NCBI RefSeq assembly: GCF_003614945.1
Contig: NZ_QYCZ01000001.1
Location: 514,001 to 578,000 of the forward strand
From: Bergeyella cardium
GTDB lineage: Bacteria > Bacteroidota > Bacteroidia > Flavobacteriales > Weeksellaceae
Length of the DNA: 64,000 bases
Direction of reading: 5' to 3'
Each line of letters starts with the position of its first letter. Within the stretch, counting starts at the first letter, position 1. Below, one piece after another: positions 2,215-59,517 of this stretch. The translations under genes and the position numbers were made by a program. Under the pieces are notes generated by a model. The model was given only the letters and a program-made list of their open reading frames with translations, searched no databases and was not told where the DNA came from.

Positions 2215-2276
2215 AGGTTTTCCCCACCGTAACCGCCCACTGTGTGGGGCACACTTAGACCGTAGCCGGTCGGGCA

Positions 2277-2303
2277 CTTAGCCATAGCGTGGCAGGCAAT
2301 TAT
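2277..2303. repeat. Repeat head block, copy 1
   Basis: A 27-bp block starting CTTAGCCATAGCGTGG and ending GGCAATTAT is repeated at 37925-37951 with 25 of 27 bases identical. In both places it sits directly before a tandem repeat array. A second shared motif, ACCGTAGCCGGT, lies just upstream (2259-2270, and 37761-37772 at the other locus). Confidence 0.7.
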
Positions 2304-37748: not shown

Positions 37749-37840
37749 TTTCCCGCATACACCGTAGCCGGTGAGGCATTTATTAGCAGCAGGCTTTAAG
37801 CAAAAGGCAGCAGGCTTCAATAATATTACTCCATTAACAA
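37749..37840. repeat. Repeat motif and TAGC/AGCAG low-complexity stretch
   Basis: ACCGTAGCCGGT (37761-37772) is shared with 2259-2270. It is followed by GCAGCAGGCTTTAAGC and GGCAGCAGGCTTC, a local duplication of the AGCAGGCTT word. Confidence 0.5.
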
Positions 37841-37875: not shown

Positions 37876-37924
37876 AGTGTAATAATACCATAGCCTACCC
37901 TTAGCACAGCTGCCAGCTGACGGA

Positions 37925-37951
37925 CTTAGCCACAGTGTGGCAGGCAATTAT
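37925..37951. repeat. Repeat head block, copy 2
   Basis: Matches 2277-2303 at 25 of 27 positions (CTTAGCCACAGTGTGG... ending GGCAATTAT), and like that copy it lies directly before a tandem array. Confidence 0.7.
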
Positions 37952-37964
37952 CCTATTCCCCTAT

Positions 37965-38090
37965 GGGGATTTTAACATTTGGTACTAAACTGCCCTGTCC
38001 CGATATCGGAATTTTAACATTTACTACTATTTTGTCCTGTCGTCATATGACGACGGCACAGTTTTCTGCCAAACTGTCCTGTCGGGGTAC
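37965..38090. repeat. Tandem repeat, three units of 42 bp with palindromic junctions
   Basis: Units start at 37965, 38007 and 38049. Shared words are ATTTTAACATTT (units 1 and 2) and CTG(C/T)CCTGTC (all). The unit edges are palindromes with different sequences: TCCCC-TAT-GGGGA (unit 1 start), CCGATATCGG (1/2), GTCGTCATATGACGAC (2/3) and GGTACC (unit 3 end). Unit 3 also carries ACAGTTT-TCTGCC-AAACTGT. The 37749-38153 gap holds no gene. Confidence 0.75.
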
Positions 38091-38093
38091 CAA

Positions 38094-38155
38094 TCAGCTT
38101 TTAGCTGATAGCTGCTGGCTAATAGCTATTAGCCAAAAGCCATCAGCTACCTGCT
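38094..38155. repeat. TAGC-rich repeat with an 18-bp palindrome
   Basis: Contains the perfect palindrome GGCTAATAGCTATTAGCC (38117-38134) within flanking AGCTGATAGCTGCT and CATCAGCTACC. It lies at the 3' end of the minus-strand barrel gene and could also act as its transcription end. Confidence 0.6.
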
Positions 38156-59215: not shown

Positions 59216-59361
59216 GTGGCTTTCTGCTCCCTTTTCTCTCGCGAAATCATGTTTCTTCTTGTAAAATTCTATTTTCTTTACGAATAATATCAGATTTCTT
59301 ACTAAAATCCATCAACTTTTCAAGTATTTGATTTCCCCCATATTGCGCGTGCAAAAATACT

Positions 59362-59517
59362 CGTGTATTTTATTACAAACAGGGTTGTTTGTCCTTACCT
59401 ACACGAGTATTTAATCACAAACAGGGTTGTTTGCCTTTACCTACAAGAGTATTTGATTACAAACAGGGTTGTTTATAATCAAATACACAAGAATTTTATT
59501 TCAAACACAATGCGCGG
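59362..59517. repeat. Tandem repeat, three full and one partial unit of 42 bp
   Basis: Units start at 59362, 59404 and 59446, with a shorter diverged unit from 59488. Each full unit contains ACAAACAGGGTTGTTT, an inverted pair around GGGT. In unit 3 the arms grow into a long stem: GTATTTGATT at 59449-59458 pairs with AATCAAATAC at 59477-59486. The array is bracketed by ATTGCGCG and AATGCGCG. The 59216-59361 part is AT-rich with no gene. Confidence 0.8.

Follow-up and report, generated by a model that had tools for sequence, protein, structure and literature searches.

The window, a stretch of 64,000 nucleotides, carries an array of 42-bp units. The gap that holds the array is 405 bp long and is flanked by convergent genes, one coding for a DUF3822 protein and the other for a TonB-dependent receptor (Table 1). 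The DUF3822 protein has 65% identity to its counterpart in Halpernia humi and 55% identity to one in a Bergeyella MAG, and such protein relatives place the organism probably in Weeksellaceae. In H. humi the gene that follows lies on the same strand, unlike the arrangement in the window, and this locus therefore provides no empty site for comparison. Heptamer-like AGC runs (TTAGCTATTAGCCAAAAGCC), which are able to form long hairpins, adjoin many of the units described below, both at 38101-38150 and in several other gaps.

Table 1. Features of the array gap and of the second unit A place, in window coordinates.
Feature	Position	Strand	Basis or remark
DUF3822 protein gene	ends 37748		flanks the array gap
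Dispersed 23-bp unit A: CACCG-TAGC-CGGTG + tail AGGCATTTA	37760..37782	+	match of covariance model R1 (C1:551760-551782, 30.9 bits)
Variant unit: hairpin CAGCTGCCAGCTG + tail ACGGACTTA	37907..37928	+	sequence; genome search with GACGGACTTAGCCA
Unit A variant without TAGC loop: hairpin GCCACAGTGTGGC + tail AGGCAATTA	37929..37950	+	sequence
42-bp unit 1: motif TCCTATT, palindrome TCCCCTATGGGGA (37957-37969), inner part TTTTAACATTTGGTACTAAACTG	37951..37992	+	
42-bp unit 2: motif CCCTGTC, palindrome CCGATATCGG (38000-38009), inner part AATTTTAACATTTACTACTATTTTG	37993..38034	+	
42-bp unit 3: motif TCCTGTC, palindrome GTCGTCATATGACGAC (38039-38054), inner hairpin CAGTTTTCTGCCAAACTG (38059-38076)	38035..38076	+	
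Array end: motif TCCTGTC + GGGGTACC; self-complementary part GGTACC only	38077..38091	+	
Heptamer-like AGC repeat run forming a long imperfect hairpin; a separate dispersed repeat, not the unit itself	38101..38150		genome copies
TonB-dependent receptor gene	ends 38154		flanks the array gap
Second unit A place: GACCG-TAGC-CGGTC-GGGCACTTA, then GCCA-TAGCG-TGGC-AGGCAATTA	2258..2302	+	R1 matches, 35.4 and 20.3 bits

The array is marked by a 7-base motif, YCCYRTY, that begins at 37951, 37993, 38035 and 38077. The first-pass annotation had described 37965-38090 as 42-bp tandem units bordered by four different self-complementary sequences; the sequence it quoted matches the DNA, and the motif starts confirm a period of exactly 42 bp. 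Three of the borders, one in each of units 1 to 3, are perfect palindromes, but the fourth, GGTACC, is only 6 bp long and falls below the limit (arms of at least 4) used for counting palindromes in the array. The inner sequences that had been taken as shared are partly so: ATTTTAACATTT is common to units 1 and 2 but absent from unit 3, which has a different inner part containing the hairpin CAGTTT-TCTGCC-AAACTG, and CTGTCCTGTC is exact at 38074-38083 but carries one mismatch at each of the other two junctions. Tandem Repeats Finder did not report the 42-bp array at a score of 50, probably because the units are just ~71% alike.

Taken by themselves, the palindromes of the array are only mildly unusual, since three or more non-overlapping palindromes with arms of at least 5 occurred in 34 of 5000 dinucleotide shuffles of the 141 bp (mean 0.445), and 120 of 6386 overlapping 141-bp windows, falling in 13 separate places of the 64 kb, reached the same palindrome count as the array. 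The 261 nt around the array, a stretch that takes in a long flanking hairpin, gave fold z-scores of -4.67 as DNA and -5.17 as RNA, and the 141-nt array alone gave -3.63 as RNA, with none of 200 shuffles as stable in each case. When the single 42-nt units were folded as DNA (z -0.66, -0.37, -3.82 and -1.59), unit 3 alone folded exceptionally and units 1 and 2 displayed no notable fold by themselves.

The whole genome, which includes the window, comprises 1,959,232 bases in three contigs and contains two more arrays in the 42-bp register, one at C1:1214267-1214450 and one on the opposite strand, inside C1:848170-848344. According to the ORF calls all three arrays sit between convergent genes, and all three are adjoined by CAGCTxCCAGCTGACGGACTTAGCCA, although the 848 kb array is inverted relative to this sequence; a stretch near-identical to the variant unit at 37907..37928 adjoins the other two arrays. 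The border also recurs at C1:1299773 and again in the 42 bp that follow, and other copies were found near C1:1556246, at C1:1656770 and within C2:88047-88190. The 42-bp unit at C1:1299773 reads TCCTGTT + CCCTTATGGGA + AGCCTTTAGCAAGGC + AGGCAATTA, that is, a border palindrome plus a copy of the dispersed 23-bp unit A. A 42-bp unit near 88130 on C2 is of the same design (border palindrome, TAGC hairpin and tail), and the copy at C1:1656770 starts like the C1:1299773 unit, but its hairpin pairs poorly and its tail differs.

The 18 distinct border copies, including the poorly paired rows w4, p5 and t1, aligned without gaps. Within a fixed register 77% of cells paired compared to 57% after shuffling, and covariation was 0.557 compared to 0.211, neither value being reached in 500 shuffles and slid registers giving at most 0.279; the rows are homologous copies and hence not independent events, 11 of them coming from the three arrays found by homology and the 42-bp register (four from the window, four from 1214 kb and three from 848 kb) and some of the other seven having been noticed partly through being palindromic. 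The number of pairs changed on both sides (matched in 172 of 500 shuffles) and of pair types (74 of 500) did not exceed the shuffles. A loose scan for border palindromes with YCYHRTY showed no excess (119 of 2866 matches compared to 133 of 3280 in the reversed control), so that the border family is recognisable only via register or homology. The borders had been regarded as independent sequences; they are instead homologous in position and lie in one register, with sequence free and symmetry constrained.

A search of the array gap against its own genome resulted in 86 matches at E ≤ 1, mostly to modules outside the 42-bp array. One module, unit A, is 23 bp long and has the form N5-TAGC-N5'-RGGCAMTTA, a 14-bp hairpin with 5-bp arms followed by a fixed 9-nt 3' tail. 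A pattern blind to the 5' arm, TAGCN5RRGCAMTTA, matched the genome 53 times compared to once for the reversed control. Five-base pairing was perfect in one of two registers in 36 of these 53 matches, and mean pairing was 4.45 of 5 compared to 2.93 after permutation (maximum 3.42; none of 10,000 permutations reached the observed value), the better of the two registers being taken in the permutation control as well. Among the 37 distinct sequences all five pairs had changed on both sides, and covariation was 0.641 compared to 0.179 after shuffling, a value that none of 500 shuffles reached and that slid registers approached to 0.250 at most; pairs changed on both sides (118 of 500 shuffles) and pair types (45 of 500) were less decisive. 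The first-pass annotation had claimed that different sequences keep their self-complementarity and had proposed arm covariation among genomic copies as the test; this test is positive for the borders and, with less selection bias, for the dispersed unit.

A covariance model built from the pattern matches (R1), with rough E-values, matched the genome 159 times at E ≤ 10; 81 of these matches reached E ≤ 0.01, and 52 of the 81 are pattern matches used in building it. On a 613 kb background, made up of 20 stretches of the own genome away from known matches, 20 stretches of the relative G001, and L021 and L022, the model still matched 23 times at E ≤ 10. The top background scores were 19.6 bits (E 0.031) in G001 and 23.7 bits in the own genome, so that not every match of about 20 bits can be trusted. 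Hairpin density showed no clear difference between 300 kb of G001 and 300 kb of the own genome, the latter picked away from known matches and thus a background rather than a random sample.

Among the best 113 R1 matches, the 75 that are 23 bases long and have flanks were aligned, and the fixed columns lay within the 23 bp; the strongest columns outside were A at -1 (0.63 bits) and +28 (0.48 bits). With 17 matches lacking flanks and four of other lengths excluded, 69 of the remaining 92 paired perfectly in the best of four registers and fell into 12 arm alleles, led by CACCG (26), CCCAC (13), CTCGT (5) and GCCGT (5). Ten of the 12 perfect arm alleles were present at two or more separate sites (separate 1500-bp bins) compared to none of 19 imperfect alleles with 3-4 of 5 pairs (Fisher P = 1.5e-6), a comparison in which the best of four registers was taken and in which imperfect copies are under-sampled because the R1 search favours paired arms. 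The first tail bases go with certain alleles (CCCAC with GAGCA in 13 of 13), as expected from copied lineages. The loop is mostly TAGC, with AGC in the GCCGT allele and a mixture in CCCAC that also includes TGGC, TCGC, TTGC and TGC.

The matches lie on both strands (60 and 53), and 40 of 69 clusters consist of a single match. Same-strand neighbours within 120 bp were spaced 19, 22-24 or 42 bp apart in 18 of 29 cases. Eight of ten inverted neighbours were tail-to-tail, six of them at 47-50 bp, and two were head-to-head; one tail-to-tail pair folds into three hairpins. No strand bias relative to GC skew was observed in rough 100-kb bins (22:23 and 33:27). Almost all of the clusters examined (41 of 43) lie between two ORFs, 21 in codirectional, 12 in convergent and 8 in divergent gaps, one further cluster falling inside an ORF call and one at the edge of a stretch; among 120 background gaps of at least 100 bp, 67 were codirectional, 24 convergent and 29 divergent.

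Unit A stands out in its own genome only among the 320 family genomes, one of which represents the genus: compared to the 53 pattern matches here, each of the other 319 genomes had 0-3, like the controls. Among 395 genomes sampled from the order, the CACCG form (three mismatches allowed) was found 59 times here and one to two times in six others. Spread of the unit across the family or the order sample was accordingly rejected. When the array was compared by blastn with 197 family genomes, six besides the own genome each had one weak match (E 5e-4 to 7e-3, 22-45 bp), which we take as background without inspection. A phage or plasmid origin was also rejected, as distant blastn gave only short matches (E at least 0.06) and the exact CACCG form was found 0 times in viral contigs. 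Rfam at the gathering score identified two tRNAs only in 83,115 bases from 16 sources, with no match to the repeats. In a Pfam scan of 30 of the 83 neighbouring proteins, taken from among the smaller ones, most matched ordinary cellular families, two matched nothing and no transposase family was detected.

These properties resemble those of REPs, and the best explanation as a whole, which we rate somewhat above even, is that the 42-bp array is one local tandem cluster of a REP-like system of hairpin repeats, which extends through the genome and lies mostly between genes. We infer from position and period, and not from sequence identity, that the inner parts of the 37951-38091 array descend from unit A. 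Passages of PMC3733652 describe GTAG- and CGTC-tagged REPs as short palindromes that lie between genes in many copies. Some of their families are species-specific, sub-families carry alternative complementary stem residues, and REPs occur as singles, dimers and clusters (PMC3733652). The same passages mention short unpaired tails in some REPs (CCA in CGTC types) and one case with a 5-bp stem, and state that CGTC REPs have no dedicated transposase and occur in Bacteroidetes too (PMC3733652). Like a REP, unit A is palindromic, mostly intergenic and present in high copy (81 R1 matches at E ≤ 0.01), its 23 bp fall in the 20-40 bp range, and its 12 perfect, covarying arm alleles correspond to sub-families with alternative complementary stems. 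Since REP sub-families also differ at complementary stem residues, stem covariation as such is nothing new. Unlike a REP, unit A lacks a GTAG or CGTC tetranucleotide at the 5' foot of its hairpin (in 75 of the 113 matches positions -5 to -2 hold at most 0.29 bits, and only A at -1 stands out, in 49 of the 75); the constant parts are instead the TAGC loop and the 9-nt 3' tail, the units form regular head-to-tail chains, and no Y1 or REP transposase was found.

REPINs are described, in parts of PMC3116915 and PMC8266576, as hairpin units in inverted orientation, separated by a short spacer and able to fold jointly. The tail-to-tail pairs of unit A may correspond to this arrangement, six sharing a 47-50 bp spacing; unlike in a REPIN/RAYT system, however, inverted pairs are a minority, 40 of the 69 clusters consist of one match, and no Y1 or REP transposase was found. 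PF01797 had no match in the own genome at E ≤ 1 and the REP transposase model NF047646 had none at E ≤ 0.001, and a Y1/RAYT mobiliser encoded in this genome was rejected on these grounds. Compared to this, 101 of 148 family genomes matched NF047646 at E ≤ 0.001, 40 of them above the cut-off, and a match is also missing in the small relative G001. R1 gave a single match (E 2.2) on six RAYT loci of relatives. A REP transposase may have been lost after the spread. According to part of PMC6006769, Bacteroidetes TnpAREP genes of subclass 2.6 have atypical secondary structures on their flanks, and further copies of these structures occur at other places of the same genome; by analogy this may be relevant to unit A as a lead, not a test. 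Part of RepRanger (PMC12306157) gives REP counts for three Bacteroidota genomes, two of them Flavobacterium. Among the papers that library searches on repeats of this type listed for this group of bacteria, no title or abstract start described unit A. Unit A appears as a REP-like hairpin family that is new to the resources searched, is probably mobile in trans and has an unusually free stem.

CRISPR arrays consist of short, regularly spaced, partly palindromic repeats, like the 42-bp array. In the 42-bp array, however, the repeat itself has drifted and its borders are palindromes of varying sequence, and there is no constant repeat with unique spacers.

Arm covariation and the allele counts together suggest, with slightly better than even probability, that unit A is REP-like non-autonomous hairpin DNA, copied in trans only when foldable. 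A nuclease or transposase acting in trans would copy the unit, recognising the folded single strand through its loop and tail and not through the arm sequence. Only foldable copies would then spread, so that arms would change in pairs and unpaired copies would be dead ends, which fits the recurrence of 10 of 12 perfect and none of 19 imperfect alleles. The mobilising enzyme may have been lost from the genome or may be of an unrecognised kind, and the exact 42-bp tandem copies could arise from slippage or unequal recombination. Single-strand transposition often shows strand bias, and the lack of such a bias in unit A counts against mobilisation, as does the lack of a match to PF01797 or NF047646. 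The loop is also not fully fixed, given the four other loops found with CCCAC, which counts against this explanation too.

A more far-reaching reading, which we consider possible though not likely, is a class of mobile hairpin distinct from REPs, in which a putative enzyme reads only the TAGC loop and 3' tail of a folded 23-nt strand. This would leave the arms free to evolve in pairs, with about a dozen arm alleles present in this one small genome, and the 42-bp palindrome arrays would be built by that enzyme or its products.

Mutation, and not an enzyme or selection, may also keep the symmetry, if a newly made strand folds back during replication so that one arm serves as the template for the other, with slippage and recombination raising the number of units. 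Such template switching, reported in part of PMC8794818 to create and mend hairpin stems and in part of PMC8604942 to homogenise arms, would produce paired arm changes like those of unit A, as in the quasipalindrome products described there (PMC8794818). Seven steps between perfect arms alter a single pair. Four of them are C-G to G-C, a change out of reach of point mutation via a G.T intermediate, and single-mismatch intermediates are present for two of the seven; the C-G to G-C steps fit mobilisation or template switching alike. In about 505 kb, loops with at least four pairs and the tail were TAGC in 56 cases and GCTA in none. Inverted loops would be expected from switching between strands, so their lack argues against that form and not against one-strand snap-back, which inverts no loop and makes this a partial test. 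Unlike template-switch products, unit A has a constant loop orientation and tail and occurs as dispersed copies of a defined 23-bp unit, all of which template switching leaves unexplained. Mobilisation was judged likelier since it accounts better for the defined unit and its single dispersed copies, and template switching, its main rival, we hold to be a rather unlikely explanation.

A role of the hairpins as RNA (3' end stabilisers, attenuators or protein-binding sites), with pairing kept by selection in each transcript, appears improbable. The strong RNA folding of both the 261 nt and the array, together with the convergent genes around the array and its two sister arrays, would suit such a role. 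The units occur, however, in all gap types, including the divergent gaps that hold 8 of 43 clusters (29 of 120 in the background), and in nearly equal numbers on the two strands, and a stranded RNA element was rejected for these reasons. An intrinsic terminator was rejected likewise, as the tail RGGCAMTTA is not followed by a T-run. The lack of any Rfam match to the repeats at the gathering score in the 16 sources also speaks against an RNA role.

It is very improbable that a nucleoid or regulatory protein binds the palindromes as sites of two-fold symmetry, phased along the helix at 21 or 42 bp. Both periods would fit whole helical turns, and even-centred palindromes such as GTCGTCATATGACGAC are of a suitable form. 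A dimeric binder, however, would be expected to fix the arms and leave the centre free, and the reverse is seen here, with loop and tail constant.

Chance, that is, intergenic DNA with a few palindromes noticed by looking for them, has some support in the array alone, where similar palindromes in shuffled sequence, the result named in advance as refuting the earlier claim, were obtained in part (34 of 5000 shuffles equal the array, as do 13 places in 64 kb), but the in-register covariation of 18 border and 37 unit copies, each reached by none of 500 shuffles, upholds that claim across the genome, is decisive and rules chance out as the origin.

Covarying arms are normally read as evidence of functional RNA, and here they occur in dispersed, apparently non-coding DNA units. 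A structure-reading mobiliser or templated mutation may yield covariation without any RNA function. With about eighty copies of one 23-nt design, the parts that an enzyme would read and a change of both arms in one step become testable.

Several other tandem arrays were observed. Within the window, a 21-bp array (half of 42) at 2346-2450 begins ~45 bp after the two unit A hairpins of the second unit A place, and its later units contain GGTTAGGAACC and GGTTAATAACC, again different palindromes in one register. Another exact 42-bp tandem array (3.6 copies, 80% matches) is intergenic at 59358-59507, ~200 bp from a tRNA gene, and its unit contains ACAAAC-AGGGTT-GTTTGT. Elsewhere in the genome, hairpins CAGCTTCCAGCTG and CCACTCGC(A/G)TGG alternate with short linkers in a 41-bp array at C1:384437-384660, and five near-identical ~41-bp units around CCTCCAATGAGAAAAATATTAACAAGATTCACG adjoin hairpin units at C1:1355330-1355540. 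A tandem array at C1:1605820-1605930 has a 23-bp unit, GGATAGACACTCTATTACGGGAA.
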